Assembly (NCBI GenBank): GCA_016215705.1
Contig: JACRIR010000248.1
Coordinates: 1-42,967, forward strand
Direction: 5' to 3'
Length of the DNA stretch: 42,967 nt
From: Candidatus Poribacteria bacterium
GTDB lineage: Bacteria > Abyssobacteria > SURF-5
The position numbers and the translations under genes are program-made. Below the pieces are notes generated by a model. It saw only the letters and a list, made by a program, of their open reading frames with translations, made no database searches and had not been told where the DNA came from. The first letter of the stretch is position 1. The number at the start of each line of letters is the position of its first letter. Positions 2,892 to 25,572 of this stretch are shown here, in pieces.

Positions 2892-2907
2892 GGCGGCGCT
2901 CCTAATG

Positions 2908-2942
2908 AAAAGGGGAAAGATGAAAGGAACAGGGCGAAAGGG
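2908..2942 (+). repeat. Purine-rich GGCGAAAGG repeat (family F1), solo arm
   Basis: It is a purine-rich stretch ending in GGGCGAAAGGG, related to the inverted arms of the four-helix-bundle elements at 27957-28408 and 31414-31579. Read on the minus strand it lies in frame just ahead of the likely cytochrome start and would encode FPFRPVPFIFPLF, so it may add hydrophobic residues to the leader if translation begins upstream. Confidence 0.65.
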
Positions 2943-3189
2943 AAAAACCGAAGAAGAAGAGGGAATACCTTGCTCCGATCTTGTCGGAGGTCGCAATGAT
3001 CGCGGGGGGGGCGCGCTTTCTTTCGCAGTCAATCTGCCGCGCGTAGGTCGCACGCTCCGAAGAAAGAGGCGAAAGGCGAAAAGAGAGTTACGAGTTGCGA
3101 GTCGCGAGTCGCGAGTCGGGATTTGGGAAACAGGGAAATGGAACCGACTAGACTGAAACTTCATTTTCTTCCTCCTACCAGGAAACATC

Positions 3190-3227
3190 TTAATTGAGGA
3201 TACCGTGCCGCATAGCGTCCCAATTAA
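3190..3227. repeat. Imperfect long palindrome, degenerate P1 copy
   Basis: Perfect TTAATTG/CAATTAA outer arms enclose a decayed GGATACCGTGC/GCATAGCGTCC core. It looks like a diverged member of the GGGGACACGATGC palindrome family. Confidence 0.6.
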
Positions 3228-3376
3228 AGGTAACTGCGTTTCCTTTGCAATTAACCCCCGCGCGATGGGATCGGCTGCTCCGGGCGCCGAGCTTCAACGC
3301 GGCGTCGATTCAGGCGTGGGGTTGATTCTTTCTCGATTCTGCGTGAAACCTGCTTATTATATTATATAATTTATCT

Positions 3377-3666: not shown

Positions 3667-4902
3667 CTACAGTTTGTCTACCGACAGCGGCCTGGTGGCA
3701 GAACCACCCAGAGACGACTGGACTGTAATGAACGGCGGAGGCGTGGTGATGCCCCCGTTAAAGAGAATCTGTCCATCTACGAGGTTGCCTATACCAACGG
3801 CTGTCAGGACTGCCGACGGATCGCTCGACTTCGCCCTTATAAGGAGGCGCTGGCCGGTGGAGTCGTATGCGTATGCCGAGATGTTGACCTCGTCCGTGAG
3901 AGGCACGCTAAGGGTCGTGGGCGGATTGCCTACCGGCGTCGCGGTGACGGAAACAGTGGCAGGCAAAGTGACGGCGCCCGTTCTAGTGATATGAGCGTAG
4001 GCTCTGCCGGAGTTCATCGTCATGAGCGCCGGAGTCGGAGTGATCGTTGGGCCGAGGTCGACCGTGGCGACATTGGCCGGATCGGTGAGCGCGAACACGT
4101 CGATCGACACTCCCTGCGCGGTGCGGGTGAAAGTGGCGCGTTCGAGGACAAGTCCTGCCGGAACAGCGCCGGAGAAGACCTGCCCTTGCACGGCAAACAG
4201 ATTTGTCTCTACGACACGGCCGCCAAGGCCATCAAGGTTGGAACCGGGCGGGCCGACAACGCGGAAGAGGTTGTTGCCGGTCGGGCTACCCGTGACGGTG
4301 GAGTCAACGAGCGGGTTGCCGACAAAGCCCGCGGGCGCTGCAGGCGCCACAGCGGTGAGGAAGGGTCCCACGTCGCCTGCGAGAGCGGACGCGAAATTAG
4401 GCGTCGGCAGACCTATGTCCGTTGTGAAGTTGATGGCGCGAATACCGGCCGGAACGTTTTGGAATACTTCCGTCCCAAACGGATGGACGACGGTATAGGT
4501 GCCGGCAACCGGAGTGTCTATCCGGATGCGGACGCGGCTGAAGACAAGTTGGGTTCCATCCGCCGGATTTCCGTCGGCGCTGGCGAATGCGGCTTCCAAC
4601 GCCAAGACGAGCAGAGCGTTGCCTGACGGAATATTTATGAGAGAATCGGCGCTCCAGTAGAAGGCTTCTGCGCCGAAGCCGATTTGTTGCGAGAAGGCGT
4701 TCCCCGGAATGGGGGGATCAGCGACACAGTTTAAGGCATCGAGGCACAACTGAAGCGAAAGCCCCGTTCCGTCCTGATACCAGAGGGGGAACCCGTTTTG
4801 CGGGTTTGTGGGACCGACGGCAGCGAGGGCCGCCAGCGCCGCATGCGAGCAACTGAAAATCAGCATGACAGCAAGCATTATTACTGACACTTTCCTCAAC
4901 AT
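3667..4902 (-). CDS. Secreted protein of unknown function (paralogue of 23892-25145)
   Basis: The protein has 411 residues from the ATG at 4902, which is preceded by GGAGG at a 9-nt spacing. The N-terminus MLRKVSVIMLAVMLIFSCSHA is a clear signal peptide, perhaps cleaved after AALA. The mature part starts AAVGPTNPQNGFPLWYQDG and carries an early Cys pair (CLDALNC). The rest is rich in small, polar and beta-prone residues, with repeated TLPATVSVT and TAVGIG-like strands that suggest beta-sandwich folds. I do not recognise the family and see no heme or metal motif. It is about 60 percent or more identical by eye to 23892-25145. In both places it lies directly upstream of a CHRD-bearing cytochrome, so the two products probably work together at the cell surface or in the periplasm. 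Confidence 0.85.
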   Translation of the reverse strand: MLRKVSVIMLAVMLIFSCSHAALAALAAVGPTNPQNGFPLWYQDGTGLSLQLCLDALNCVADPPIPGNAFSQQIGFGAEAFYWSADSLINIPSGNALLVLALEAAFASADGNPADGTQLVFSRVRIRIDTPVAGTYTVVHPFGTEVFQNVPAGIRAINFTTDIGLPTPNFASALAGDVGPFLTAVAPAAPAGFVGNPLVDSTVTGSPTGNNLFRVVGPPGSNLDGLGGRVVETNLFAVQGQVFSGAVPAGLVLERATFTRTAQGVSIDVFALTDPANVATVDLGPTITPTPALMTMNSGRAYAHITRTGAVTLPATVSVTATPVGNPPTTLSVPLTDEVNISAYAYDSTGQRLLIRAKSSDPSAVLTAVGIGNLVDGQILFNGGITTPPPFITVQSSLGGSATRPLSVDKL

Positions 4903-5212
4903 TTTCCTTTTCCTCCAAATGTTAGTTTTCACTGATCACGATGTAATTCACAGAACCACTATTCGTTCGGCGATAATCCCACCTCCTCCCGCATAAGAAG
5001 GGGAAAAGATGAAAGGAACAAGGCGAAAGGGAGATTCTTCGCTTCGCTCAGAATGACATTAGGGGTCATACCCTCGCTTCATCTTTCTTGCGCAATTGAC
5101 CACAAGCCCAGCGTGGTCAGGCGCTCCTAATGGTGTTAGAATTTGCATTGTTACCCTTCGTGCGGGCGACTCACCGAGTCGCCCCTATGTTTGTTCTTCA
5201 GTCCAAGATCGG
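4903..5212. other. Intergenic region with three repeat types
   Basis: No gene seen. It contains a GGCGAAAGG-type purine repeat (about 4999-5031), directly abutting a GATTCTTCGCTTCGCTCAGAATGAC motif (about 5033-5057) that recurs inverted near 14054-14078, and a GGGCGACTC/GAGTCGCCC palindrome (5164-5184). Confidence 0.6.
5164..5184. repeat. GGGCGACTC/GAGTCGCCC palindrome (family P2)
   Basis: 9-bp arms (5164-5172, 5176-5184) with a 3-nt loop, followed by CCTATG. A related copy with core CGACTCGCGAGTCG lies at 41743-41756. Confidence 0.7.
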
Positions 5213-7267
5213 TTACGGTTGGAACTGGTTCACGGGACTTTGGAGCGGAGACAGCCCGATTCCGAGCCGGCCGAAGGTTCCCACTGCTTGGACTCGGAAC
5301 GCTTGTTCACATTGTCTGAAACCGGCCTGCACGATCACCTCGCAGTCTCCGACCACGTTATTTTCGTTTCCACGAGCGCCATTCGGGACAAACAATTCCG
5401 GATGGTCGAACGGAGCGCCTTCGTTGCGGACGCGGTCGTCGGTGAGCGCAATGAAGAACGCGACGAGAGCATTCTTCTTGTCTTCACTGCCGATCAACTG
5501 ACCGATTTCGTTTATGTCCGGGTCCAGGTCAGCGACATTCGCCTCGGGGAAATTGCCTCCCCGCGCATAGAAATCCACGACTTGTCTGAGAGTCGCCATT
5601 CCACCGTTATGCATGTAGGGCGGAGTGAGATCGAGGTTGCGCAGACCGGGGGTCTTCACTGCCCCGTCGACGGCCACTCTGTCCGGAGGATTGGGTGTTC
5701 CGGGCGGCAGGTCGGGAACAAACGCAGCCAAGCCGGCCGGGAGTTGTCCGTCGCGCTTCATTATTGCAAGCCTTGAGAACGAGAGCGGGAACCCGAACCC
5801 GTCGAGTCCGCCTCTGCCGATGTCTTCGGCGGTCGGTCTGACACTGATGTTGTGCATTCCGAGGTCGATGAAGGCGCTGCCCTGGGTCATGTCAATCAGA
5901 CTGATGGGCGAGCCCTCGGCCGCGATTGCGGTAAACGTATGGTTGGAGAACTCGGCGCCGCTGTGGCACTCGGAGCACATGGTTCCGCCGGAAGTAAAGA
6001 TGCCGAGTCCATCTTTTTCCTGGGCGGAAAGCGCGCTGGCATTTCCTGCGAGGTAGCGATCGACGCGCGAGTCGTCGGAGACAAGAGTTGATTCGTACAT
6101 CTGGACTGCGAGCCCCCAGAAGAATGCGAAGTTGGCTTCCATCTGTGTGAACTCATTCGCGGCCAGAGGGCCACCAGGATTGGGAGCGATCTCGCGAACG
6201 CCATCGTTTATCACAACGATCTGTGCGGTGTTATTCCAGAACCTGGGCTGGAAGGCGGCCTGGATCATCTGGGGATAAGTGGAAGTGAGCCCGCGCAGGC
6301 CCGTTGCGCGGTCCCGCGCGTCCAGTTTAGCCCTCGAGAGGGCGCCCAGCACGCTGTCTTGCGGATGAACAAGCTGCTTGTCGAGCGGTCTCAGAGCCAG
6401 CATCTTCTTGCCAAGGTCGGGCCACGTACGGCCGCCGAATGACATCTCGAAGGGGCTGAGCGGAGGGCCGACCGCTTGCGAGGCCAGGCTCGAATTGATT
6501 ATTCTCACGAGTTGTTCCTCCAGGGTTCCGCCATTATTCACAAATACGCCGTTCTGGAGGTCGGACGGCCCGAACGGATTGTTACCGTTGAAGATGTTAT
6601 TTGCGCGGCCATCCCAGAAATTGTTGAAATTGAACACGGCGTTTATCGCGGTCGGTGTGTTCCGAGGTTCGACGCGCCGGATGGTGACACCGTTGACGTT
6701 AAACACGGGATCGTCCAAGGGTGTCCCTACATCCGTTGCGTTACCGGGATTGACCGCCTCGAACTGGGTCAGGAACACGCCTTGTGATGAAGCGACGTCG
6801 TTGCTGTCGGATATCACGGCAGAGAGATGGTCATCCGGGTCTGCCAACTTGTGGAAGGGGAAGTTCGCGAGGTTCAGGACATGGTTGGGGCCGCCGGTCT
6901 GGAATGTTTCGTCGCCGGCATTCAGGCCCGGGCTCAGTTGATTCTTGAACCGCCTGCCGTCGGCGCCCGCCACGAAATGGCATGTAGCGCAAGCCTGGAT
7001 GCCGTCGCTCCCGACCTGCATATCCCAGAAGAGGGCCTTGCCGAGAGCTATGGAAGCGTCGCGGTCGGCGACATAGCTCGCAAGGTCCGGCGGCTCAGGG
7101 ATGGGAACCTGGCTGAGGGGCGGCGGGTTCGCGGCAAATGCTGAGCCTAGCATGAAGCCGGCCAGAGATAACGATGCAAGCAGGATCGCCGCGAAGGTCT
7201 TCGTGCTGCGTGGACGTTTCGACTTGACGAAAGGCCCATCCAATCCACATAAGTGCGACTTGAACAT
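5213..7267 (-). CDS. Large diheme cytochrome c peroxidase/MauG-like protein
   Basis: The protein has 684 residues, with AAAGGAGG placed 8 nt before the ATG at 7267. A signal peptide spans roughly residues 22-46 (TFAAILLASLSLAGFMLGSAFA). The two c-heme sites are CATCH (93-97) and CSECH (431-435). NFWDGRA (216-222) and, near the C-terminus, LRNLDLTPPYMHNGG are classic peroxidase-family signatures. Unlike its three relatives in the window it has no CHRD domains: the sequence passes straight from the second heme into the C-terminal part. It is about twice as long as typical CcpA or MauG, the size class of surface-associated members. It is the first structural gene after the kinase/regulator pair at 7747-9079. 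Substrate unknown. Confidence 0.9.
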   Translation of the reverse strand: MFKSHLCGLDGPFVKSKRPRSTKTFAAILLASLSLAGFMLGSAFAANPPPLSQVPIPEPPDLASYVADRDASIALGKALFWDMQVGSDGIQACATCHFVAGADGRRFKNQLSPGLNAGDETFQTGGPNHVLNLANFPFHKLADPDDHLSAVISDSNDVASSQGVFLTQFEAVNPGNATDVGTPLDDPVFNVNGVTIRRVEPRNTPTAINAVFNFNNFWDGRANNIFNGNNPFGPSDLQNGVFVNNGGTLEEQLVRIINSSLASQAVGPPLSPFEMSFGGRTWPDLGKKMLALRPLDKQLVHPQDSVLGALSRAKLDARDRATGLRGLTSTYPQMIQAAFQPRFWNNTAQIVVINDGVREIAPNPGGPLAANEFTQMEANFAFFWGLAVQMYESTLVSDDSRVDRYLAGNASALSAQEKDGLGIFTSGGTMCSECHSGAEFSNHTFTAIAAEGSPISLIDMTQGSAFIDLGMHNISVRPTAEDIGRGGLDGFGFPLSFSRLAIMKRDGQLPAGLAAFVPDLPPGTPNPPDRVAVDGAVKTPGLRNLDLTPPYMHNGGMATLRQVVDFYARGGNFPEANVADLDPDINEIGQLIGSEDKKNALVAFFIALTDDRVRNEGAPFDHPELFVPNGARGNENNVVGDCEVIVQAGFRQCEQAFRVQAVGTFGRLGIGLSPLQSPVNQFQP

Positions 7268-8106: not shown

Positions 8107-9079
8107 TGGTCACTGCCTCCGGATTAATGGGAACGGCCAACTCTATTCTGGTTCCTTTTCCTTCATGACTAGTTACGGCAAGAGAGCCTCCCAGCATCTT
8201 CACCCGTTGGCGCATAGCCGTCAAACCTATACCGCCACCGGGACGGGTGGTCTCGGCCTGTTTAGTGTCGAATCCCTTTCCGTCGTCTTCGATCCGGAAC
8301 ACAACTTCGCGCTCGTTGTTCGCGACTACAACGGACACACGGGAGGCGTCGCCGTGTTTCCCCGCGTTTGTGAACGCTTCCTGAAAAATCCTATATAGCA
8401 GAATCTGATTTCTTTCCGGAAACAAGTGATCGATTGCGTTCATTTCGAAGAGAATTCTTGTGTCCGAATGTCTGGAAAAATCCCGTGCCAGCGATTTAAG
8501 CGCGGCGGTCAGTCCGAGGTCCTCGAGCAGGGCAGGGCTCAAGTCATGCGACAGTCTCCGGACATTTTCAACGATCTGATCGACAAAGCGTAGGACCTCG
8601 TCGCAATCCTCTTTCAGCGCGGCGCGGTTGTGTCCCAATTTCTTTGCGATGGATCGGATATGGAGTTTCAGCACCATCAGGGCCTGGCCCAATTCGTCGT
8701 GGAGTTCATATGATATCCTCTTGCGCTCTGTTTCCTGCGCAGTAAGCAGGTGTGAAGACAGAGATTGAAGCTTGTTCTCCGATTCCCTGAGTTCCGTCGT
8801 TCGTTCTTGGACCCGTCTTTCCAGTTGCGCGCGCGCTTCACACAACGCCTGTTCCACGCGCCTGCGTTGTGTGAACAGTCGGGAAACTGTGACGCCGAAC
8901 AAAATAAAGAGGGCCAGGATTACTGAGCGAATATAGGCCTCATGGCGTGGCATTCTCAGGATGAGAAGGCCCAGAAACGTGCCGGGATAAAAGAAGAGAT
9001 AGTCCAAAATTGCGTCAATGATCCAAGCGAGAAGTCCGAGGATTATTGACGAAGCGATTATTTTGGATTCGGTTTTCAT
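8078..9079 (-). CDS. NarL-family sensor histidine kinase
   Basis: The protein has 333 residues from the ATG at 9079; an in-frame TTG lies at 9088. The N-terminal 70 residues form two hydrophobic segments around FFYPGTF and PRHEAYIR, an architecture shared by all three kinases in the window. A coiled-coil linker (RRVEQALCEARAQLERRVQERTTELRESE) leads to the HisKA_3 box YELHDELGQAL and an HATPase domain with EAFTNAGKHG (N box), EDDGKGFD (G1) and GGIGLTAM (G2). The enzyme should autophosphorylate on the box His and pass the phosphate to a NarL-type regulator. Its own regulator (7747-8106) is truncated, so it may signal through the intact one at 18281-18946. The stimulus is unknown; no periplasmic ligand domain is visible. 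Confidence 0.92.
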   Translation of the reverse strand: MKTESKIIASSIILGLLAWIIDAILDYLFFYPGTFLGLLILRMPRHEAYIRSVILALFILFGVTVSRLFTQRRRVEQALCEARAQLERRVQERTTELRESENKLQSLSSHLLTAQETERKRISYELHDELGQALMVLKLHIRSIAKKLGHNRAALKEDCDEVLRFVDQIVENVRRLSHDLSPALLEDLGLTAALKSLARDFSRHSDTRILFEMNAIDHLFPERNQILLYRIFQEAFTNAGKHGDASRVSVVVANNEREVVFRIEDDGKGFDTKQAETTRPGGGIGLTAMRQRVKMLGGSLAVTSHEGKGTRIELAVPINPEAVTNESIPHHTG

Positions 9080-9201: not shown

Positions 9202-12087
9202 CTATTCCTGGAACTGGTCTACAACGCTCTGGAGCGGCGCATAGCCTGCCCACGTGCGGCCGTATTGGCCTATGGCCGGGATTTGCATCACCCGCTCGCA
9301 CTGTCTGAAGCCGCCGAGTCCGATGACATCACAGTCGCCGCTGATGAGTGTTTCGTCTCCCTTCGCGCCGTTCGGGACAAACAACTGTGGATGATCGAAC
9401 GGCGCCGACTCGTCCTTCACGCGCTCGTCGGTGAGCGCAAGCATGAAGGCAACGAGAGCATCCTTTTGGGCATCGGTCAAATTGAGTTCATTGATATCCG
9501 GGTCAAGGTCATCGATGTTCTCATCGTGGAAGTCGCCGCCCCGGTCATAGAAATCCACTACTTGTCTTATGGTGGCCGCTCCGCCGTTGTGGAAGTAGGG
9601 CGGCGTCAACTCGAGATTGCGGAGGCCGGGAACCTTAAACGCGCCATCGCGATTTACTCTGTCCGGCGGGTTGGACTGACCGGCCGGCAGGTTCGGGACA
9701 AACCGGGCGAGTTCGGGCGGCAGGAGGCCGTCGTCCTTCATCATCGCCAGTTCCGCGAATGAGAGCGGGAACCCGAACGGGTCGCTTCCACCTCGGCCGA
9801 GGTCTTCCTCACTTGGCCTGACACCGATGTTGTACATTCCATCGTCATAAAACGCGCGACCCACGGCCATGGTCATCAATTCGATGGGTCTCACGGACCC
9901 AGGGGGCAGCGGCAGGATTTGCCCACGGACTTCACCGTCCGGGTGAGTAGCGGAATGAACGTCGACGTATAGTGAGCCGTTATTCATCGCGTTTATTACA
10001 TCATTGAAGTTCGCAATTCCGGGTGCCGGAATGAGGTCGTCCAAGCCAACGGCGCCGATCAGGGGGCTCCCGAAGGCTCCCGAGGTTAGTTCGAAAATGG
10101 CGGGGCCGTTCTCGCCGGGCAGACCCGAATGAACATGGGCTCCCTCAAGATCGGCAATATTGCTGACATCGAGCCGGAAATCGATTGTTCTGATCGCCGG
10201 GTTAATAGTCAGGTCAGCGAGGCCGCTTCCGGTCGTGCTCACAGGCGGCGCTACTTGCGCGCCGTTCATGGTTGCCTGGAAGTTCGGAATATCAAGGAGC
10301 AACTGGCCGCGGATTTCACCTGCCCGCCTGGTTAGGGTGCGCACATTGACGTATGTGTTGCCTGCGATCATCGCGTCGAGCGCCTGGTCAAAAGTGGCAA
10401 GGCCGCCGGCGGGAATGAAATCAGCCGTAGTCAACGTGCCGGTCAACAGTCCGGTAAAATCCGCGCGAGAGAGAGTGAATATGACCGGACCGTTTTCGTT
10501 GGCAGCGCCGACATGAATGTGCGCGCCTGTTATGTCTCTGATATTCTGCACCTGAAGGTCGAAGATAATACTCTCCCGGAGAGGAGTGATTGCGACTAAG
10601 GCGCTTCCGCTCGCGCTCGTTTGGACGGGTGGAACTTCCTGGTCTCCGAACAAACCCGCCACCAGGTCAATCGCCTGGGGACCAATCACCTGGCCCAAGA
10701 TTCCCGAGACGGCGTGATTCGTGAATTCCGGTCCTCGATGGCAGTTAAAGCACTTACCCTGACCGTTAAATATTCGAAGTCCTTCCTGCTCTTGCGCGGT
10801 AAGCGCCGTGGTGTCCCCCAGCGTGAAGCGGTCGAAGGGGGTGTCGTCCGAGACGAGCGTCGATTCATACATCTGCAGCGCCAATCCGAAGAAAAGGGAG
10901 AAGTTAGCTTCCATTTGCGTGAACTCGCCGGCTTGCAGCGGTCGCTTCGGGCGCGCCATGATGCGCGGAATACCGTTCGCAAGTTGGAATCGTCTCGGCT
11001 CTCCGGCGGTAGCGACGTTTGCAGATGTGGCTTTGTTCGAGAATGTGAGTATCTGGGTTGTATTGTTCCAATACTTGGGCTGAAACGCGGCCTGGATCAA
11101 TTCGGTGTAGGTGACATTGAGTCCTCGTTGGCCGGTCGCCCTGCCGCGCGAGTCCGTCGTAGCATTTGAAAAACTGCCCAATGCGCTGTCGAGAGGGTGG
11201 ACAAGCTGCTTGGCGAGAGGCTGTAATGAAAACATTTTCTTGCCGAGATCCGCAAACGTGCGGCCTGCGAACGACATCTCGAAGTCGCTCAGCGGCGGGC
11301 CGACAGCCTGAGAGGCAAGGCTCGAGTTTTCCAGCCGAACACTTTCTTCCTCGAGAACGCCATTGTTATTGACAAATACGCCATTCAGCGTATCGGATGG
11401 GCCAAAAGGGTTCACTCCGTTGAAGATGTTGTTGGCGCGGCCATCCCAAAAGTTCGTGAAATTGAAGACAGCATTGATCACGGTCGGTGTATTCCGGGGC
11501 TCGACGCGCCGTATGGTGACGCCTCCGACGTTGAAGACAGGGTCGGCCAGCGGAGTCCCGATGTCCGTAGAATTCCCTGGAGTGATTCCAACAAAGTCGT
11601 GGAGGAACACGCCTTGTGAGGACGAGACGTCGTTGCTGTCGGAGAGCAACTCCGAGAACCTGTTGTCCGGGTCCGCGAGTTTATGAAACGGGAAGTCTGC
11701 GATGTTCAAAACATGATTCGGGCCGCCGATCTGAAAAGTCTGATCGCCGGCGGGAAGTCCCGGCGACAGTTGGTTCTTGCCGCGGCGGCCGTCGGCTCCC
11801 GCTGCGAAATGGCAACTCGCGCACGCCTGGACGCCGTCGCTGCCGACCTGCATGTCCCAGTACAATGCTTTGCCCAGGACAAACGCGACATTGCGGTCAC
11901 GAATGAAGTCACCGAGATTCGCCGGCTCGGGTATAGGAACCTGCGAGAGAGATTGAGAGGATGCTATCCCCGAGAGGAAAGCCGTCAGAACTGCGAATGC
12001 GATTATGAGTACGCCGACGGGCTTTGCGTCAAGAGATAATTGAGAACGCATCCTATTTTCCTTCTTTGTTTTTGCGATGCACAACAT
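9202..12087 (-). CDS. Diheme cytochrome c peroxidase/MauG-like protein with two CHRD domains
   Basis: The protein has 961 residues, with AGGAGG 5 nt before the ATG at 12087; an internal ATG at residue 13 is an alternative. A hydrophobic signal segment lies at about 24-45 (VGVLIIAFAVLTAFLSGIASS). Heme motifs are CASCH (89-93) and CFNCH (446-450), with NFWDGRA (212-218) between them. The CHRD domains (about 481-597 and 608-726) are the best preserved in the window: both keep HxHxG (HIHVG, HVHSG), ENGPVIF or ENGPAIF, and GEIRGQ or GEVRGQ endings. The C-terminus has LRNLELTPPYFHNGG. It is the last gene of module 2, downstream of the peroxidase at 12703-13947, but has its own candidate promoter at 12201-12234. 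A peroxidase-type enzyme with an extracellular binding insert is likely; the substrate is unknown. Confidence 0.9.
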   Translation of the reverse strand: MLCIAKTKKENRMRSQLSLDAKPVGVLIIAFAVLTAFLSGIASSQSLSQVPIPEPANLGDFIRDRNVAFVLGKALYWDMQVGSDGVQACASCHFAAGADGRRGKNQLSPGLPAGDQTFQIGGPNHVLNIADFPFHKLADPDNRFSELLSDSNDVSSSQGVFLHDFVGITPGNSTDIGTPLADPVFNVGGVTIRRVEPRNTPTVINAVFNFTNFWDGRANNIFNGVNPFGPSDTLNGVFVNNNGVLEEESVRLENSSLASQAVGPPLSDFEMSFAGRTFADLGKKMFSLQPLAKQLVHPLDSALGSFSNATTDSRGRATGQRGLNVTYTELIQAAFQPKYWNNTTQILTFSNKATSANVATAGEPRRFQLANGIPRIMARPKRPLQAGEFTQMEANFSLFFGLALQMYESTLVSDDTPFDRFTLGDTTALTAQEQEGLRIFNGQGKCFNCHRGPEFTNHAVSGILGQVIGPQAIDLVAGLFGDQEVPPVQTSASGSALVAITPLRESIIFDLQVQNIRDITGAHIHVGAANENGPVIFTLSRADFTGLLTGTLTTADFIPAGGLATFDQALDAMIAGNTYVNVRTLTRRAGEIRGQLLLDIPNFQATMNGAQVAPPVSTTGSGLADLTINPAIRTIDFRLDVSNIADLEGAHVHSGLPGENGPAIFELTSGAFGSPLIGAVGLDDLIPAPGIANFNDVINAMNNGSLYVDVHSATHPDGEVRGQILPLPPGSVRPIELMTMAVGRAFYDDGMYNIGVRPSEEDLGRGGSDPFGFPLSFAELAMMKDDGLLPPELARFVPNLPAGQSNPPDRVNRDGAFKVPGLRNLELTPPYFHNGGAATIRQVVDFYDRGGDFHDENIDDLDPDINELNLTDAQKDALVAFMLALTDERVKDESAPFDHPQLFVPNGAKGDETLISGDCDVIGLGGFRQCERVMQIPAIGQYGRTWAGYAPLQSVVDQFQE

Positions 12088-12702: not shown

Positions 12703-13947
12703 TCACATCCCGCATCCGCCGCCACCCATGCCTCCGCCACCGCCACCGCAGCATCCGCCTCCGTCGGTCAGCGTGAGCATGAAGGCTACAATGGCGTCGA
12801 CCTCTGATTCTGTCAGGCCGAGATTGCCGAGTTCATCGACGTTCATGTTCTGTGGCGCCTCAGCGTCGGGCCAGCCCGCGACGTCTCTTGTGTTGTAGAA
12901 ATCCACGATGTCTTTCAGGGTTGGGAAGTAGCCATTGTGCCCGTAGGGCGCCGTGATGGCGACGTTGCGGAGCGACGGGACTTTGTGCTTTCCGTTTTGG
13001 TCCGCGTAATTCGCGTCGCCGAAGAGCGGCGAGCCGCTCAAGTAGTCTTTCTTAAGGAATCCGCCCAATCCGTAATCAGTCGGGTTGTCCAAAAGCAGGG
13101 GATTCTTGGGGATGCCTACGTTGTCATAGGTAAAATCGGTGAGCATCGGCGGGATTCCACCGGGCTCGCCGGTCGTCAAGTGGCAAGCGGAGCAGTTGCC
13201 CTTGGTATTGAAGAGCGCCAGCCCCTCTAATTGTTGTGCATTGAGAATGCCTTGTGGAATCCCTGGAGGCAAAGGCAAGCCGATAAGGCTCACGTCTATG
13301 CCCCGGTTTTTGCATTCCATCCAGAACTGGTCGAACTTCGAGCTGAATCTGCTTAAGTCCTTCGATCTTTCATATGCTGCGATCGCTTTGGCTATGTTGT
13401 CATAGGCTGTATCTACGTTGTTTAACGAGTTTGTGCCGAAGACTTGCTTGAACAATGAAGCATAGCATGATTTCTTTACGACATTCACGACAGCCGCCTT
13501 GTTAGGCATGGCCATCTCGAGCGGATTCAGAAACGGCCCCTGCGCTTGCTCGGCAAGGGGGTCTGCGAGCCGCGTGTGTCCCGTGGCCCGCCCATCCCAG
13601 AAAAGGCCGCCTACGTACAAGCCTTCCGTATCATCCCAGCCGAGCACGGGGCTAAAGCCCGCATATGCCGCCGTGGGAGCATTGCGTCCGCCCTTGCTGA
13701 CTCCGTCTGAGCCGGTAGACACGACGCTGTCGTATGGGTCGGCGGTATTGGCGGGGTCTGCGAATCCGGCCATGGGATGATGACAACTCGAGCAGGATTG
13801 ATTCTTGTGCAGCGACAGATTTCTGTCCTGGAAGAGGTGTTTCCCGAGCATTTCGATGTTGGAAAGCCCCATCGCTGCAAATGAGTAGCTTGAAGACATC
13901 AATAGCAGCAAGAGTGTGAGGCACAGTAAGGGTTTTACGCGGGCCAT
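12703..13947 (-). CDS. Cytochrome c peroxidase family diheme protein with Gly/Cys-rich tail
   Basis: The protein has 414 residues from the ATG at 13947, preceded by AAAAGGAGA at about 8 nt; an open frame upstream to 14295 is repeat sequence. The signal peptide is MARVKPLLCLTLLLLLMSSSYSFA. Heme motifs are CSSCH (52-56) and CSACH (252-256), with FWDGRA (116-121) and KVPSLRNVAITAPYGHNG (322-339). This is the ordinary size of bacterial diheme peroxidases. The last 18 residues are unusual: after LTLTD the chain is almost pure Gly with Cys399, Cys400 and Cys412. That tail could bind metal, form disulfides or anchor the protein, and it is not part of the family core. It follows the two multicopper-oxidase-like genes in module 2. 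Confidence 0.9.
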   Translation of the reverse strand: MARVKPLLCLTLLLLLMSSSYSFAAMGLSNIEMLGKHLFQDRNLSLHKNQSCSSCHHPMAGFADPANTADPYDSVVSTGSDGVSKGGRNAPTAAYAGFSPVLGWDDTEGLYVGGLFWDGRATGHTRLADPLAEQAQGPFLNPLEMAMPNKAAVVNVVKKSCYASLFKQVFGTNSLNNVDTAYDNIAKAIAAYERSKDLSRFSSKFDQFWMECKNRGIDVSLIGLPLPPGIPQGILNAQQLEGLALFNTKGNCSACHLTTGEPGGIPPMLTDFTYDNVGIPKNPLLLDNPTDYGLGGFLKKDYLSGSPLFGDANYADQNGKHKVPSLRNVAITAPYGHNGYFPTLKDIVDFYNTRDVAGWPDAEAPQNMNVDELGNLGLTESEVDAIVAFMLTLTDGGGCCGGGGGGMGGGGCGM

Positions 13948-14394
13948 GGTGTTTTCTCCTTTTCCTCTCGATAACCGGTTTACGGTCCACGGTTTGCGGT
14001 CTGCGGTCTGCGGTCTACACGGCATGTCGCCCAAAAGGGATAGACTATTTGTCATTCTGAGCGAAGCGAAGAATCTCCTCCGGGATGCAGAAATTTGCAG
14101 CAAAATGTGAGAGTCTTCGTCATTTGGGTACGACCCTTTGCTCCTTAGAATGACAATCCCGATTCGGCTATAAACCCGAGTCTCATTCGGGTAACGAGCA
14201 ACGCAGTTCGCGGTTGGGGAAAAGCGGGGACGCGATGTCACATCATGTTTCCGTTTTTCCCGGGAATCTGAACCAGACAGCTCTGCACAGAACATTGAGA
14301 AAACATCTCGTCTGAAATTGTGCGAATAAGGACAGCCCCGAAGTACGAAAAATCGGGGACACCATACGGCATGGTGTCCCCAGTTCTCTGTTTG
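13948..14394. other. Intergenic region of repeats
   Basis: No gene. It holds GGTTTACGGTCCACGG/GGTCTGCGGTCTGCGG-type simple repeats (about 13976-14018), a TCATTCTGAGCGAAGCGAAG motif (about 14054-14073, inverted relative to 5033-5057), a decayed P1 palindrome (14225-14253) and a good P1 palindrome (14355-14381). Confidence 0.6.
14355..14381. repeat. P1 palindrome, GGGGACACCAT form
   Basis: An 11-bp perfect stem (14355-14365 with 14371-14381). It lies just downstream of the multicopper-oxidase-like gene at 14395-15852, but no T-run follows on the minus strand. Confidence 0.8.
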
Positions 14395-15852
14395 TCAGGT
14401 TGTTATGTTAATGGGAATCCGTGCGGTCATCAGGCGTCTGCCGGGACCGGCGGTGTTGCTCTGTGTATCCAGGAACTCGACGAAGGCAAAGCCGCTGAAC
14501 GGCCTGCCGGACCTCGTGATTGCGTCGAAACGCCGGGCGGTGCTGAGCAGTATTGGTCTTCCGGCGGGAAGCAAGAAGGCCGTGTTGTAATTCCCGAAGG
14601 GCGGCACGCCGAGGGCGCGGCCGTCAAAGGCTATGATCGCCACAGGAATCGGGAAAGTGACCCTGGCGTAGTTGTACGCCGCATCGAGGCACCGGATTAG
14701 TATGGTCTGGTTAACACGAGCGTTAATCGCGACCTGGGTGCCGGAGATGCCGCTCATCAGTGCAGGGGGTATTTCCCCATCCGGGAGGCCGCCTCCAGCA
14801 GGTGGCGCGCCCGCAGGGTTGATAGTGCCAATACCGGTGCCGCCACGGTCAATCCGTGCAGCCGGCACAGGGACGCCCGTGATAAACCAGTAGTCCGCGT
14901 TGTAGTCGTGAAAGAACCCGCGGAAAAATTCATCGTTGACACCGGGCTGGTTGCCATGCTTGGGGAAGAATGCCCTTGGGTCCGGCGCAAAGTCGCTCCA
15001 GACGGAGTCCCTATCGTCGCACACCCACACCGCTTCGACATCATAGGGCACGGTGTAGGCATGGGGGTCTCCGTTTTCGACCCCGACCGGAGTGCCCTTG
15101 GTGAACCCGGGGAACGGGTTGGGCCTGCCGGTGACGACAGGATCGAGATTGCATTGGACCCTATGCAGTCCATCGGTTCCGGCGCCGATGGGAATATCAT
15201 TAAGCTCTACAGTGCCATCCGGGTTTATTGAGTCAATCGAGGCGAAATAGGCGTCGGGCGCCTCGAAGATCATTGCGCCGTACAGACCGTATTCAAAGTG
15301 CTGAACCGTATTCCGGTGGCAGTGGTAGAAATAGAAGCCCATGAAGTTGGGCTGCCACTGATACGTATAGTTGCCGAGTTCCATCGAGCAGTGTCCTACG
15401 CCGTCGTTTATCGGGGTGGGCTCGATGCCGTGCCAATGGATGGTGTGCGGCGGCGGCCCGTGGCCCAGCGTTGCTCCATGAAAGATCGCTCCACGTGGCA
15501 TGCGAAGAGTGGCAGCGGGAAAGTTGCCGTTGCCGGTAGAAGGATTGTCCTGGTCTCTGAAGAGGAAGAAGTTCAGGAGTTTGCCGTCCCACCCGGGCAG
15601 TTGCATGCCGTGCATCAGGTCTCTCTGTACAGTGTGTGGAACACTGACCTGACTGTGGTAACCTGCAGCCAGCATCACTTCGGGCACGGGATTGGCCCTC
15701 GTTCCCAGCGGAAGGTTTTCCAAGTCGAGGAGCTCAGGTGTCGGGGGACTCTCATTGGGCGGATCGAACATCTTGGCCCATAGCCCGGTCTCCCCGGCAG
15801 GATGTTCCACGGATCTGCGAGGAATCAGATTTTCGGGATTCGCGACTGACAT
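14395..15852 (-). CDS. Multicopper-oxidase-like protein carrying only the domain-1 copper motifs
   Basis: The protein has 485 residues from the ATG at 15852. Cupredoxin domain 1 has HTIHWHGIEPT (H139 and H141) and FYFYHCHRNTVQHFEYGLYG (H177, H179, H185). These match multicopper oxidase motifs I and II, half of the trinuclear ligands. The C-terminal half resembles a copper-free domain 2 (VNQTILIRCLDAAYNYARVTF, IIAFDGRAL). The chain then ends: no HPxHLH or HCHxxxHxxxGM motif follows. No signal peptide is visible. The gene directly upstream (15967-17592) has the missing domain-3 motif and a Tat leader, so the two may assemble as one split oxidase and be exported together. The gap of 114 nt contains a P1 palindrome. 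A stand-alone enzyme cannot be ruled out. Confidence 0.82.
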   Translation of the reverse strand: MSVANPENLIPRRSVEHPAGETGLWAKMFDPPNESPPTPELLDLENLPLGTRANPVPEVMLAAGYHSQVSVPHTVQRDLMHGMQLPGWDGKLLNFFLFRDQDNPSTGNGNFPAATLRMPRGAIFHGATLGHGPPPHTIHWHGIEPTPINDGVGHCSMELGNYTYQWQPNFMGFYFYHCHRNTVQHFEYGLYGAMIFEAPDAYFASIDSINPDGTVELNDIPIGAGTDGLHRVQCNLDPVVTGRPNPFPGFTKGTPVGVENGDPHAYTVPYDVEAVWVCDDRDSVWSDFAPDPRAFFPKHGNQPGVNDEFFRGFFHDYNADYWFITGVPVPAARIDRGGTGIGTINPAGAPPAGGGLPDGEIPPALMSGISGTQVAINARVNQTILIRCLDAAYNYARVTFPIPVAIIAFDGRALGVPPFGNYNTAFLLPAGRPILLSTARRFDAITRSGRPFSGFAFVEFLDTQSNTAGPGRRLMTARIPINITT

Positions 15853-15919
15853 ATGCTTTTTCCTTTCTTGAGAGCGCAGATTGCTGCGCCTGTACGGGCA
15901 ATTGCACTCGGATTCGTCC

Positions 15920-15958
15920 GGAATCGGGGACATGATGAGACATCATGTCCCCGATTCC
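15920..15958. repeat. P1 palindrome, 18-bp perfect stem, GGGGACATGATG form
   Basis: 15920-15937 pairs with 15941-15958 around AGA. The core change from CACG to CATG is compensated on the opposite arm. It sits between the two multicopper-oxidase-like genes, where a transcript would form a strong hairpin. Confidence 0.9.
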
Positions 15959-15966
15959 GTGGCTCA

Positions 15967-17592
15967 TTACATGTTCATTATCTCCGGGAACGGAGGCAGG
16001 GGGCCGGCAGCAGCTTGCGGGCTCACATTCGGATTGGGCCCGAAGACTTCCGGTATGTTCGGGAAGCTCAGTACGCCGCCGGGTAGATTACCGTCGGCAT
16101 TGCGGTCACCCGTGAAATTCATTCCTGCGATCAACCCGAGGTTGTAGTTGCCGCCCTGGGCAGTCTGGCTCGGTTCCGAATGGTCGTGCATCGGGAAACA
16201 CAGAGGCGACAACTGCACATGTATCGGGTTAACTCCTGCCATGGTTCCCACTCTTGGGATAGCCATGAACATCTCTTGCGTCGGCGGCCACGTGGCCACT
16301 CCCGGCGGAGTATCTCCTGCCGCCACTTCTTCTCCCACCATGATCACGCCGAAATTGGGTATGGGGGTCGGGTCTACGGGAAGCGGGACCTCGAGGTCAG
16401 CGCGTCCGATGCCTTTGTTGTTGGGAACATCCGGAGGCCGCATGTATGGGTTCAGCCAATCCCATGTGTCCAGAGGTTTCGATGTGAAGGTGTCTATCCA
16501 GATATGATTGTCCCTTTGGCCCGGGAGCACGTCCTGTGCGCTGAACTGATTGTTGACGGCCAACACATACACGTGGTTTGCGTGGATATGCATGGAGTGA
16601 CACCACAGCCCTGCGTTGAGAACCCGGATGATACAGGGTTCGCCGACGCGGAGGTTCGGGCATACGAACGGGCTATTGTGGGAGAAATGTCCGGACTGGC
16701 CGCTAATGGTGAAGTATTCCGGCGTGTTGTTTTCCACCGGGGCCTTGTTTGCCCCTTGGGTGATGAGTGGGTCATTCAGGAATTTATCAAGGAAAGTTTG
16801 CGCCGGATAGTTCACGCCCGGATTGTTAAATGAGAATATCCCCACTTCCTGGAACAGCAGCGGGCTGGGCTGATGCAGCAGCCAGATATACTGCCGGAAA
16901 GCAGGAGTGGCAGGGAAGGGAGCGGGATTAGCGGCGCCCTCGCCCCAAGCAAGCCCGGGCCACCACGGCTTTGCGCCCAAATCGGCGAACAACTGCGCCA
17001 TTCTCGGATTGGCGGTAACATCAGCAGCGCCATAAGGTGTTCCATTGGCCGGATTGGGCATGACGATGAAAGCGCCATGCAGACCCATTACACGGTTCAC
17101 CGGCGCATTCAGGTCGTCATAATAGAGATAGCTTCCCGCCGAACCAGCCGGCAATGTGAACCTGAGAGTTGTTGTCGTAGGCGTCGCCGGAGTGCCTGCG
17201 GCCATTGTGCTGCTGGTGAACGGCCCCAAACCGGGGAACTTAGCCTCCATGGACGGAATTGCGAAGCGATGTGCAGTGGGAAGATTATTTCTCAGATTGA
17301 TCGTGATGGTGTCTCCCTCGAAGGCGAAGATAGTGGGCCCGGGGACCTCGGCATCGATGGCCGGGGCTGTCGACTTAAAAAGCCAGAAGTAGCATTCCGC
17401 ATTGTTTGCGGCGTTGTGGGTCACCATCTCTTTGACCCCATCCATCAGTGCGAGATTGAGGGTCTGGGTTGCAGCGATAACAGCATTACTTTTAGCGAGC
17501 CAGCGTGGCACTTTAGGCCCCACCACAATGGCCGCCGCGCCGCCCAGCCCGTGCGAGATAAACTCACGTCTATCCATTCCTCTTTCTTTCAT
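15967..17592 (-). CDS. Tat-exported multicopper-oxidase-like protein carrying the domain-3 copper motif
   Basis: The protein has 541 residues from the ATG at 17592, with GGAGG 5 nt upstream. The leader MDRREFISHGLGGAAAIVVG is twin-arginine (R8, R9). The cupredoxin part at 84-180 has GPTIFAFEGDTITINLRNNL, but motif I is lost (AHRFAIP instead of HWHG) and motif II reads YLYYDDLNAPVNRVMGLHG, without its HxH. Further on, CHSMHIHANHVYVL (331-344; H332, H335, H337, H340) matches motif III. FPMHDHSEP (H469, H471) is the likely motif IV, with Asp in place of the type-1 Cys. It therefore holds the half that the neighbour at 14395-15852 lacks. It is the first structural gene after the intact kinase/regulator pair. 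Confidence 0.82.
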   Translation of the reverse strand: MKERGMDRREFISHGLGGAAAIVVGPKVPRWLAKSNAVIAATQTLNLALMDGVKEMVTHNAANNAECYFWLFKSTAPAIDAEVPGPTIFAFEGDTITINLRNNLPTAHRFAIPSMEAKFPGLGPFTSSTMAAGTPATPTTTTLRFTLPAGSAGSYLYYDDLNAPVNRVMGLHGAFIVMPNPANGTPYGAADVTANPRMAQLFADLGAKPWWPGLAWGEGAANPAPFPATPAFRQYIWLLHQPSPLLFQEVGIFSFNNPGVNYPAQTFLDKFLNDPLITQGANKAPVENNTPEYFTISGQSGHFSHNSPFVCPNLRVGEPCIIRVLNAGLWCHSMHIHANHVYVLAVNNQFSAQDVLPGQRDNHIWIDTFTSKPLDTWDWLNPYMRPPDVPNNKGIGRADLEVPLPVDPTPIPNFGVIMVGEEVAAGDTPPGVATWPPTQEMFMAIPRVGTMAGVNPIHVQLSPLCFPMHDHSEPSQTAQGGNYNLGLIAGMNFTGDRNADGNLPGGVLSFPNIPEVFGPNPNVSPQAAAGPLPPFPEIMNM

Positions 17593-20732: not shown

Positions 20733-23633
20733 TTATGGTTGAAACGGGTTGAATATCGGACCCAGCGGCGGGAGGCCGGCGGCGGGCCGACCGCCTGCGC
20801 CGACCGGCGGAATCCGTAGGATTCCTTCGCACTGTTTGAAACCACCGATGCGGAACAATCCGCAATCGCCGATAATCTGTGTTTCGTCTCCTCTCGCGCC
20901 ATTGGGCACGAATATTTCCGGATGGTCGAACGGCGCTATCTCATTGCGCACGCGATCGTCGGTAAGCGCCAACAGGAATGAGACCAGGGCGTTTTTCCTT
21001 TCCGCCGTCATGTTGGGGATAACGGCTATGAACGGCGACAGATTGTCGATATTCTCGTCGCGGAAGTTTCCCCCGCGCGTGTAGAAATCCACTGACTGCC
21101 TCACGGTTGCCATGCCGCCGTCCCGGTTATAGGGGCCGGTCAGCTCGACATTGCGAAGGGTCGGCGTCTTGATGGCGCCGTCAACAGCGACCCTGTCGAG
21201 GTCGCACGGAGTCCTGCAAGGCAGGTCCGGCGTATATTGCGCGATTTCGGGCGGCAGCAATCCCTGACTCTTGAGGAGGGCGCGGCGAGAGAATGAGAGC
21301 GGATAGCCGAACGGGTCGGTCCCGCCTCTGCCGATGTCCTCGAAAGTCGGTCTCACTGCGATATTGTAATAGCCAGTATCGTAGAAGGCCTCGCCCACAG
21401 TCATTGCCATTCGCTCGATGGCAGCTTCTGCTGCCAGCGCCAGCGGCCCGCGAATCTCGCCCTCGGGATGGGCGGCGGTTTGCACGACGACATAGGTCTT
21501 TCCGCTTATGATCGCGTCAATTACTTCGGCCATACTGGCCGCTCCAGCAGTCGGGATAAGGTTGGCTTCGCTAAGAGTTCCGGCAAACGGACTCACGAAA
21601 GCCGTGTTCGCGAGGACGAAGATGGCAGGTCCGTTTTCACCGGGCAGGCCAAGATGCATGGTTGCGCCGGTAACGCCGGTTATGTTTTTTGTTCTGAGTC
21701 CGTAAGAAATGAGTTGTTTGTCCGCGTCGATAGTGACGATAGCGTTGCCGGTCGCGGCGGTAGTAACAGGAGGAACGATCCGGTCGCCAAGCAGGACGGA
21801 ATCGAAAGTCAAGAGGGTGTCATTCAGTAGATGGCCGCGTATCTCGCCTGCCGGATGGGCGGCGGTGGCAATGTTGACATAGGTGTCGCCATTCTTCATC
21901 GCATTGATCGCATCGGCAAGGGTGGCGATGCCGGGGGCCGGAATGAGGTCAGTCTGAGTCAACGTCCCCGTCAATCGGGTAATGAAGCCCGTATTCGTAA
22001 GAACGAAGATGACGGGCCCGTTTTCTGTCGTAGAGCCGAGATGGACAGTTGCGCCGGTGACGCCGGCTATGTTTGCCGCCTCGATCTCGAACGCAATCTG
22101 AGTCAGCGCAGCATCAAATATGAGGCCGGCTTTCCCGCTGGCGGCAGTCGCAACGGGAGGCACTTCCTGTTGGCCGCTCATGTTCGCGATCACCCCCGGC
22201 GGCTCCAGGATCAGGCCTGCCGTGGCCGAGACTGAAGCGAGAGTGAATTCAGGACCGCCGTGGCAGTTTATGCACCTGCCGTCAAACAAGAAGATGTCGA
22301 GACCTTCGAGTTGCTGTGCGGTCAGCGCCGTAGTATCTCCTTCTTGATACTTGTCGAACGGCGTGTTATCCGAGACGAGGGTGCTCTCATACATTTGGAT
22401 GGCTAGGCCGAAGAATAGAGAGAAGTTGGCTTCCATTTGCGTATATTCGTTAGAGGCGAGCGGGCGGGCGGGGCGTCGCACAACTTGCCGTATTCCATCT
22501 CCATATCGGAACGAGCGGGGGTCTTGCGTTTCGGGGCGGTGGATATCTTCCGTGCCGGGTGCAAATCTGATCATCTGGCTGGTGTTCTGCCAGTATTCCG
22601 GTCTGAAAGCGGTTGTAATCAGGTGGCGGTACGTGACATTGAGCCCGCGCTGTCCCTTAACTTTTCCCTGCGCATCCAGGAAGGCGCTGGAGTAGATGCC
22701 CAAGAAGCTGTCGAGGGGATGAACCAACTGTTTTGCAAGCGGCCTGAGCAGCAGCATTTTCTTTCCGATATCGGCAAAGGGGCGACCCGTGAAAGACATC
22801 TCGAAGTCGCTCATAGGGGGACCGACGGCCTGTGAGGCGAGGCTTGAGTTGGGAATTCGCACAAGGCGCTCCTGCAACGTTCCATTCACATTCACGAATA
22901 CGCCGTCGGTCAGGTCTGACGGTCCGAACGGATTAACGCCATTGAACACTTGATTGGCGCGCCCATTCATAAAATTTTCAAAATTGAAGACGGCATTGAT
23001 TACCGTGGGAGCATTTCGCGGCTCGACACGGCGAAGGTTGACGCCATCGAGGTTGAATACCGGATCAAAGATCGGAAAGCCTGATTCGATTGAGCCACCG
23101 GGTCGAATAGCGGTGAAATTGTGAAGGAGGACACCCTGTGACGAAACGATATCGTTGCTGTCCGAAATCACGGTTGAATACTGATCATCCGGATTTGACA
23201 ACTTATGGAAAGGGAAATCACTAAACTGCAAAGTCTGGTTGGGCAGTCCGGTCTGAAAAGTTTCGTCGCCCGCGAGAAGTCCGGGGTTGAGTTGGTTTTT
23301 GAGGCGATTATCCGCCCCCGCGTGGAAATGGCAACTCGCGCACGCCGCTATGCCGTCGCTGCCGACCTGCATATCCCAGTAGAGGGCTTTGCCCAGCGCT
23401 ATGGCTGCGCTTTCATTCTGAACAAAGTCAGCAAGATTGGGCGGTTTCGGAACAGGAATTGTTTTCAGCGACGGAGGAGCGAATGGGTGTGTAGGGAAGT
23501 CAAAGCCGGAAACCACGCATGCCAGGATTATGGTTATTGACAATAGAATCCACGGTTCTCTTTCATTCCGGCCGGATGATGGGATTTGTTCACTTTGCGC
23601 AAGCGGGCTGCCCTTCTTAGCTTCGTTCCTCAT
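20733..23633 (-). CDS. Diheme cytochrome c peroxidase/MauG-like protein with two CHRD domains, partly degenerate signatures
   Basis: The protein has 966 residues from the ATG at 23633, with a GGAGGAGAGG about 11 nt upstream. A hydrophobic leader is at about 28-43 (PWILLSITIILACVVSG). Heme motifs are CASCH (98-102) and CINCH (453-457). CHRD-like domains span about 485-602 and 614-731 and end in AGEIRGH and EGEIRGP. It is closest to 150-2891; both begin DFPT(N/H)PFAP after the leader. Two family signatures are altered: NFWDGRA is NFMNGRA (220-226), and PYFHNGG is PYNRDGG near the C-terminus. The heme sites are intact, so binding is likely but activity may differ. It follows the secreted protein at 23892-25145, as the paralogue pair does in module 1. 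Confidence 0.88.
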   Translation of the reverse strand: MRNEAKKGSPLAQSEQIPSSGRNEREPWILLSITIILACVVSGFDFPTHPFAPPSLKTIPVPKPPNLADFVQNESAAIALGKALYWDMQVGSDGIAACASCHFHAGADNRLKNQLNPGLLAGDETFQTGLPNQTLQFSDFPFHKLSNPDDQYSTVISDSNDIVSSQGVLLHNFTAIRPGGSIESGFPIFDPVFNLDGVNLRRVEPRNAPTVINAVFNFENFMNGRANQVFNGVNPFGPSDLTDGVFVNVNGTLQERLVRIPNSSLASQAVGPPMSDFEMSFTGRPFADIGKKMLLLRPLAKQLVHPLDSFLGIYSSAFLDAQGKVKGQRGLNVTYRHLITTAFRPEYWQNTSQMIRFAPGTEDIHRPETQDPRSFRYGDGIRQVVRRPARPLASNEYTQMEANFSLFFGLAIQMYESTLVSDNTPFDKYQEGDTTALTAQQLEGLDIFLFDGRCINCHGGPEFTLASVSATAGLILEPPGVIANMSGQQEVPPVATAASGKAGLIFDAALTQIAFEIEAANIAGVTGATVHLGSTTENGPVIFVLTNTGFITRLTGTLTQTDLIPAPGIATLADAINAMKNGDTYVNIATAAHPAGEIRGHLLNDTLLTFDSVLLGDRIVPPVTTAATGNAIVTIDADKQLISYGLRTKNITGVTGATMHLGLPGENGPAIFVLANTAFVSPFAGTLSEANLIPTAGAASMAEVIDAIISGKTYVVVQTAAHPEGEIRGPLALAAEAAIERMAMTVGEAFYDTGYYNIAVRPTFEDIGRGGTDPFGYPLSFSRRALLKSQGLLPPEIAQYTPDLPCRTPCDLDRVAVDGAIKTPTLRNVELTGPYNRDGGMATVRQSVDFYTRGGNFRDENIDNLSPFIAVIPNMTAERKNALVSFLLALTDDRVRNEIAPFDHPEIFVPNGARGDETQIIGDCGLFRIGGFKQCEGILRIPPVGAGGRPAAGLPPLGPIFNPFQP

Positions 23634-23891: not shown

Positions 23892-25145
23892 TCACTGTAT
23901 TTTGTCGACTGTCAGCGCCTTAGTGGCGGAACCGCCGGCCGAGGATTGAACCGTAATGCTCGGCGGAGGCGTTGTGATGCCCGCGTTAAAGAGTATCTGG
24001 CCATTGACCAGGGGACCAATACCCACGGCGGTGAGCGTCGGGGCCGGAGTTGCCGTATCACTCGACTTCGCCCGTATCAGGAGTCGCTGGCCGGTAGAGT
24101 CGTATGCGTAGGCGGTGATGTTGACTTCGTCAACCAGTGGCTTGGTAAGGGTCGTCGGCGGATTGCCTACCGGTGTCGAGGTTACGGAGACAGTTGCCGG
24201 CAGAGTGACTGCGCCCGTCCTGGTGACATGAGCATAGGCTCTCCCGGAATTCAACGTCATGGCAACAGGTGTCGGAGTGATTGTCGCCCCGAGGTCCAAT
24301 GTAGCAGTATTGGTCGGATCGGTAAGCGCGAAGACGTCAATCGCGACTCCCTGCGCATTGCGAGTGTAAGTGGCGCGCTCGATGACAAGGTTCGCCGGAA
24401 CAGCGCCCGTGAAAATCTTGCCTTGCACCGCAAAGAGGTCCGTCTGCACCGTGGTGCCGCCAAGTCCGTCAAGATTAGAACCCGCAGGGCCCTGGACGCG
24501 GAAGAAGTTGTTGCCGGTCGGGCTGCCCGTGACGGTCTGGTCAACCAGAGGGTTTCCAACGAAGCCCAGAGGGGCCGCAGGCGCAACAGCGGTGAGGAAT
24601 GGTCCGACGTCGCCGCTCAAAGCGACATTGAAGGCCGGAGTAACAGCGCCTATGTCAACGGTGGAATTGATGGCGTTCGGCCCTGCTACTACATTCGTGA
24701 AAACTTCCGTGCCGAACGGATGCGTCACAACATATGTGCCGTTGACAGGGGCATCAATCCTTATGCGGAGCCGGCTGAACACAAACTGGTCTCCATTAAG
24801 CGGGTCTCCAAGACCCCAGGAGGATTCCAGCGCCAGGACAAGGATGGCACTGCCGGACGGTATGGTGATAAGGGAGTCGGCGCTCCAATAGAAAGCTTCC
24901 GAGCCGAAGCCGACTTGTTGCGAGAAAGCATTTCCAGCAATCGGCGGGTCGAATGCGCACACTCCGTTCACACCATCACCATCGAGACACATCTCCAGCG
25001 CCAAACCGGCGCCGTCCTGGTAGAAAAGTGGGAACCCGTTTTGCGGGTTGACGGGGCCCACGGCCGCGAGGGCCGCGAAAGCCGAGTGTGAAAGGCCGAT
25101 AACCAACATGACGGCCAGCATGATTAACGAGACTTTCCTAAACAT
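23892..25145 (-). CDS. Secreted protein of unknown function (paralogue of 3667-4902)
   Basis: The protein has 417 residues from the ATG at 25145, which has GGGAGG about 9 nt upstream; an earlier ATG at 25169 lacks this. Signal peptide MFRKVSLIMLAVMLVIGLSHSAFA. The mature protein begins AAVGPVNPQNGFPLFYQDG and has Cys in CLDGDGVNGVC. It shares long blocks with the module 1 paralogue: NAFSQQVGFG, FYWSADSLI, HPFGTEVF, GDVGPFLTAVAPAAP, SPTGNNFFRV, GRAYAHVTRTGAVTLPATVSVT. A beta-rich, extracellular or periplasmic fold is likely. Function unknown; the constant position before a CHRD cytochrome suggests a partner or anchoring role. Confidence 0.86.
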   Translation of the reverse strand: MFRKVSLIMLAVMLVIGLSHSAFAALAAVGPVNPQNGFPLFYQDGAGLALEMCLDGDGVNGVCAFDPPIAGNAFSQQVGFGSEAFYWSADSLITIPSGSAILVLALESSWGLGDPLNGDQFVFSRLRIRIDAPVNGTYVVTHPFGTEVFTNVVAGPNAINSTVDIGAVTPAFNVALSGDVGPFLTAVAPAAPLGFVGNPLVDQTVTGSPTGNNFFRVQGPAGSNLDGLGGTTVQTDLFAVQGKIFTGAVPANLVIERATYTRNAQGVAIDVFALTDPTNTATLDLGATITPTPVAMTLNSGRAYAHVTRTGAVTLPATVSVTSTPVGNPPTTLTKPLVDEVNITAYAYDSTGQRLLIRAKSSDTATPAPTLTAVGIGPLVNGQILFNAGITTPPPSITVQSSAGGSATKALTVDKIQ

Positions 25146-25572
25146 TTTGTTTTTCCTCCCTGCATTCATTGATACACCGCGTTAGTTTCCTTTGACCACA
25201 ATGAACTCAAACATCCTTTTGTTCGCTTGCCGGTAACTTCACCTCCTCCCGAATCAAGAAAGTTTCGCTCGGATTCGCGTTGGCCGTTTGAAGGCGTTGT
25301 ATGCGGATTGTAGCCTTCCGGGCGGCCTTTCCAATTAGACCGTTTTTGTCTCATTATTATGCAAATTTTTTTAGCGCACCAAGCACGCTCTGTCTCTGCC
25401 CGAAAGAACATGGCGTCAAAGGAGTCAGCGGAATCGAGAATAAACGACGTGCAATAATGCGCGAGGGTGGTCATTTCTCTTACCCGGTTTTATATGTTCT
25501 CTCCGGAAATTCCGGTGTGAGTAATTATACTAACCCAAATATAGCACTGTTTCGCATAGGCGCAAGGGGGAA
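25146..25572. other. Intergenic region between kinase and secreted protein gene
   Basis: No convincing gene. The only promoter-like element I see is TATAAT on the minus strand (complement of 25524-25529), with no good -35 and no TACCTAT heptamer at the spacing found elsewhere. A 102-codon frame at 25166-25474 has no recognisable features and no strong ribosome binding site. Confidence 0.5.

Follow-up and report, generated by a model that had tools for sequence, protein, structure and literature searches.

To our knowledge, multicopper oxidases have otherwise been described as single chains or homomers. In three-domain laccases and CueO, motifs I to IV follow one another in a single chain and the type-1 Cys lies in motif IV. 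The copper nitrite reductase NirK is a two-domain protein of the same superfamily, with its type-1 site in domain 1 and its catalytic copper between protomers. A literature search, for which subscription journals were mostly out of reach, returned no multicopper oxidase with trinuclear-site ligands on two gene products, the only result being the fungal 'heterodimeric laccases'. Their likeness to the pair described here, two different subunits, is one of name only; the small subunit (e.g. of POXA3) is not a copper oxidase chain and has no copper ligands. Type C two-domain oxidases are homotrimers in which each chain carries both half-sites. According to the accessible text of PMC13151041, the type-1 copper site of type C enzymes lies in the N-terminal domain only, and the trinuclear site of two-domain oxidases is common to two chains. 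The manganese oxidase MnxG is a single six-domain chain in which motifs III/IV precede motifs I/II, as stated in the available part of PMC3618234. Its trinuclear site is placed between the second and third domains, and its type-1 site in domain 2 only, in the available part of PMC3600357.

In the window, by which we mean the whole 42,967-nucleotide stretch of DNA analysed, two neighboring genes on the minus strand divide the motifs of a multicopper oxidase between them (Table 1). Gene A comes first and gene B follows after 114 bases. The coordinates, lengths and motifs that a sequence-only reading had assigned to both genes held on re-check: the 541-residue A has motifs III and IV and a Tat leader, with AHRF and YYDD at the places of the lost motifs I and II, and the 485-residue B has motifs I and II and no leader. 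The same reading took the locus for one oxidase split over two genes. The motifs are indeed divided, but each chain is a whole two-domain protein and not half of a cut gene. We placed the starts at ATG 17592 for A, which opens with MDRREF followed by the hydrophobic stretch of a Tat-type leader, and at ATG 15852 for B. A purine-rich, Shine-Dalgarno-like stretch lies just 5′ of each start. The first in-frame ATGs give longer products of 565 and 512 residues, respectively; relatives align to the 541- and 485-residue starts. Pfam Cu-oxidase_3 was detected in domain 1 of B (E 8.9e-10) and, despite the lost copper ligands, in domain 1 of A (E 7.8e-10, at 99-204 of the 565-residue reading). The best profile matches of B were 3g5w and 2zwn (E 2e-17), which we take to be type C two-domain multicopper oxidases. 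NCBIfam scores of A and B were far under the curated cut-offs, and neither protein has the single-chain layout of three-domain laccases and CueO.

Table 1. Features of the A-B locus and its surroundings in the window (all on the minus strand)
Feature	Position	Strand	Remark
Gene A: two-domain cupredoxin protein, 541 aa, Tat leader, motifs III + IV	15967..17592	(-)	
Tat-type leader of A (MKERGMDRREFISHGLGGAAAIVVG...VIAA)	17470..17592	(-)	putative cleavage point
Lost motif I of A: AHRFAIP, aligned to HTIHWHG of B	17254..17274	(-)	
Lost motif II of A: YYDD, aligned to YHCH of B	17113..17124	(-)	
Motif III of A: HSMHIH, two trinuclear-site His	16582..16599	(-)	HxH 35/35
Motif IV of A: HDH, two trinuclear-site His, Asp at type-1 Cys place	16180..16188	(-)	HxH 35/35
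A-B intergenic stretch: one shared frame, TAA, TGA, TGA between genes	15853..15966	(-)	
Gene B: leaderless two-domain cupredoxin protein, 485 aa, motifs I + II, type-1 set	14395..15852	(-)	
Motif I of B: HTIHWH, type-1 His and two trinuclear-site His	15430..15447	(-)	35/35
Motif II of B: HCHRNTVQHFEYGL, type-1 Cys and His, axial Leu, two trinuclear-site His	15283..15324	(-)	35/35
Di-haem cytochrome (CCP/MauG family), directly downstream of B	12706..14295	(-)	Pfam CCP_MauG E 8.7e-37
Large di-haem CCP_MauG cytochromes, two CHRD domains each	153-3293, 9202-12087, 20733-23633	(-)	
Two secreted proteins of one family (..AVGPxxPxNGFPLWYQD..)	3670-4935, 23895-25181	(-)	no Pfam match

Because the phylum of the window is represented by only three genomes, relatives were drawn from other phyla. 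A scan of public genome contigs for B returned seven loci, in records named Deltaproteobacteria, Phycisphaerae, Desulfuromonadales and Chloroflexi, and A lay directly upstream of B in 7/7. Whole-genome profile searches (E <= 1e-20) gave matches in 10/297, 1/400, 4/392 and 15/395 genomes, where the ten genomes of the first figure are all contained in the fifteen of the last and each search includes an already-matching centre genome. Three further loci came from plasmids, two of them in Indioceanicola profundi and one in Arthrobacter. The remaining plasmid matches were short first-domain pieces, among which only H13 and H3 were opened, and MnxG was not found in these two; a search for further homologues in viral contigs found none. 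When the 37 B-profile loci, window included, were read with their surroundings, 35 were A-B pairs with A directly upstream of B, distributed over at least five named phyla. The other two were a complete single-chain oxidase (L080) and a B-like first domain cut by the contig end (L081), which has no A in the preceding 6.2 kb and may be an ordinary oxidase; both were excluded from the A and B sets. One B (L007) was counted once, though an in-frame TGA at 9054-9056 of its locus, inside an otherwise intact gene, gives two rows; the same genome has four more A-B pairs.

The A profile, run against 24 genomes and matched in 21, yielded no convincing case of a lone A. Outside the pair loci, the profile matched a fragment at a contig edge (G1152:C137), the single-chain protein of G063 and, over the first domain only and with 42 bits, a possibly ordinary oxidase (G1141:C1:358025). 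Two of the unmatched genomes (G900 and G980) fell under the cut-off, yet divergent A proteins were seen there; none was seen in the third (G059). The co-occurrence of both genes across genomes, proposed earlier as a check, was thus found in 35/37 B-profile loci, and this strict pairing supports the earlier suggestion that both chains together form one enzyme.

The motifs were divided identically in 35/35 pairs, indicating that the division is not due to chance. All 35 A proteins kept both His of motif III and both His of motif IV, and all 35 B proteins kept the full HxxHxH of motif I and HCH-x5-H of motif II. No HxH was present at the motif I/II places of A, nor at the motif III/IV places of B in the three rows inspected (window, L015 and L078); 6 of the B and 9 of the A proteins have scattered HxH at other places. 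In contrast to the chains of type C homotrimers, the two diverged chains therefore have one half-site each, as far as the B places were checked in those three rows. B also contains a complete type-1 set, namely the first His of HTIHWH, the Cys and His of HCH...H and a Leu at the axial place (Leu in 22 and Met in 13 of the 35), which makes it more than a motif I/II half. The full type-1 set was found in 0/35 A proteins. There, the middle residue of motif IV was D in 18, S in 8, C in 6, P in 2 and G in 1, the first (type-1) His of motif III was present in 26/35, and no His followed motif IV at the usual distance, with one His further on in L074. The six A proteins that keep HCH in motif IV may have a second copper site.

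The Asp in motif IV, previously regarded as odd, is explained by the presence of the type-1 site in B, since two His then suffice for motif IV of A. In the A profile, this motif aligned with FHDHVDTH in 2zwn, a two-domain laccase of solved structure; the piece has no score alone but is in line with the two preceding aligned pieces. At its domain-2 motif IV, 2zwn also has HDH. The location of the type-1 set in domain 1 of B is another likeness to type C oxidases, and the ligand sets of A and B appear to divide as do domain 1 of one type C chain and domain 2 of another. Judged from these motifs, each chain appears to carry half of the oxygen-reducing copper site, and only the pair would be able to work.

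The A and B profiles aligned collinearly along both domains, at E 4.5e-10 when built from 10 and 9 rows, respectively, and at E 5e-24 when built from 35 and 36. The single-chain oxidase L080, 405 residues from stop to stop, has all four motifs; A aligned to it over motifs III and IV (HSMHIH, then HCH; E 4e-24) and B over motifs I and II (HTIHFHG, HCHYQTIMHLEMG; E 1e-24). In a tree built from L080 and 30 sequences each of A and B, the A and B clades were each monophyletic, with support of 0.994 and 0.982, respectively. The separate clades and the collinearity indicate one duplication before the spread over these phyla. Distances among A and among B were correlated in 30 pairs (r 0.89; 0/2000 permutations as high, highest 0.32), to which shared inheritance also contributes. 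Five partial or frame-shifted loci (L009, L016, L067, L069 and L072) were left out of the tree and the distance test. Sequence comparison identifies both chains as paralogues of, and collinear with, a complete two-domain multicopper oxidase, and as complementary half-enzymes from one old duplication. On the Arthrobacter plasmid (L016, NZ_CP084562.1), A and B form one chain with a frame change inside B domain 1 (5940-6110): the two lie in overlapping frames, and the start of B domain 1 is read in the A frame. This is a fused form whose frame shift reflects either a sequencing error or a broken gene.

The N-terminus is included in 31/35 A rows, and all of these except the fused Arthrobacter protein (30/31) have a twin-arginine motif. 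No leader was recognizable after the likely start of any B, by eye or in a hydropathy scan. Some B N-termini contain an RR pair, which was not accepted as a second leader, since the stretch after it is polar rather than hydrophobic. In the only three B proteins scanned for additional domains, L010, L011 and L012 (3/35 pairs), carboxypeptidase-regulatory-like domains were found at the C-terminus. Such domains are usual in exported proteins, and their presence fits export of B. In L010 and L011 they precede a dockerin-like terminus. Tat co-export of leaderless partners has a known precedent in the accessible part of PMC4273604. The distribution of leaders thus supports the earlier proposal that the leaderless chain is co-exported.

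Two-component regulators surround the pair in the window, as read from their translations, and five CCP_MauG di-haem cytochromes are encoded there, three of them with CHRD domains. On either side of A-B, the large CCP_MauG/CHRD cytochromes recur together with genes for histidine kinases and response regulators. Among the 35 loci, a neighbor with exactly two CxxCH was found in 11 (Pfam was checked for the window's only), the secreted family in 9 by motif search, and CusA-type and CusB-type pump genes in 8 each (examples supported by NCBIfam), all of these counts being lower bounds as flank lengths differ between loci. Members of the secreted family lie near A-B in several phyla, and one lies right after the fused Arthrobacter plasmid oxidase. 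In L068-L070, CusA/CusB-type pump genes follow directly downstream on the same strand. These mixed neighbors suggest candidate roles that may differ by lineage, metal detoxification in some and, in others, electron transfer along a chain that includes di-haem cytochromes. The di-haem cytochrome directly downstream of B is a possible functional partner of the pair.

Since the two window genes share one frame with stops between them, the locus might be taken for a single oxidase gene that was degraded or mis-assembled. However, each chain is complete, has two domains and has its own start and Shine-Dalgarno-like site, the split is present in 35 loci, and the chains are paralogues rather than successive parts of one oxidase. 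This explanation is refuted by the relatives and has practically no chance of being right. It is improbable, to a much lesser degree, that B is a stand-alone copper protein (a type-1 carrier or nitrite-reductase-like) and A a separate chaperone or scaffold, with no shared trinuclear site. B does hold a full type-1 set within itself, its domain 1 matches both oxidases and copper nitrite reductases, and some relatives have Cus-type metal pumps next to the pair. However, the four trinuclear-site His kept in 35/35 B proteins would be needless for a type-1 carrier, and exactly the other four are kept in 35/35 A proteins. The motif II of nitrite reductases is HCA, not HCH, which counts against a nitrite-reductase-like B. 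Both A and B resemble NirK in sequence, but HCH at motif II of B together with the four His of A points to a trinuclear rather than a single type-2 site.

The motif order along the operon, with A before B in 35/35 pairs, is the same as in MnxG, as is the position of the putative trinuclear site between the second and third domains, and the pair could for these reasons be a split form of that six-domain oxidase. We consider this very unlikely. The type-1 site of MnxG is in domain 2, whereas here it is in the next domain, B domain 1, and A shows Asp at the type-1 place. In addition, the pair comprises four domains on two chains instead of six on one, a comparison in which MnxG is set apart by its description only.

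In our assessment it is highly probable that A and B form a single extracytoplasmic multicopper oxidase of which each is an obligate subunit. Such an enzyme would descend from a two-domain type C oxidase with type-1 copper in domain 1 and trinuclear copper at the interface where domain 1 of a protomer meets domain 2 of its neighbor. After duplication, copy A would have lost the domain-1 ligands and copy B the domain-2 ligands, so that the only productive interface left would be that of A domain 2 with B domain 1. The pair would fold in the cytoplasm and exit via Tat on the A leader. In the copper-loaded enzyme, substrate electrons would enter at the type-1 copper in B and travel over the Cys-His bridge of that chain to a joint trinuclear cluster. 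Each chain would contribute four His to this cluster, at which O2 would be reduced to water. AlphaFold2 models, built from shallow alignments, had a pLDDT of 32.8 and a pTM of 0.31 for the read-through joined chain (15 rows) and of 36.0 and 0.34 for A alone (8 rows), too low to bear on assembly either way.

More tentatively, the pairs may constitute an undescribed heteromeric class of multicopper oxidases that arose when an oxidase was duplicated and each copy lost a different half of the active site, is inseparable in at least five phyla, and partly works with the di-haem MauG-type cytochrome and the large secreted family as an extracellular electron-transfer chain to O2; we hold this possible while leaning against it. 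Automatic annotation calls each half a 'multicopper oxidase domain protein', which masks that neither likely works alone. Independent mutation and mixing of the type-1 and oxygen-reducing halves would be feasible, and Tat co-export could be tested with the pair. With one trinuclear site seemingly divided between specialized paralogues, A-B would be a natural case of a homomer that became an obligate heteromer by complementary loss.
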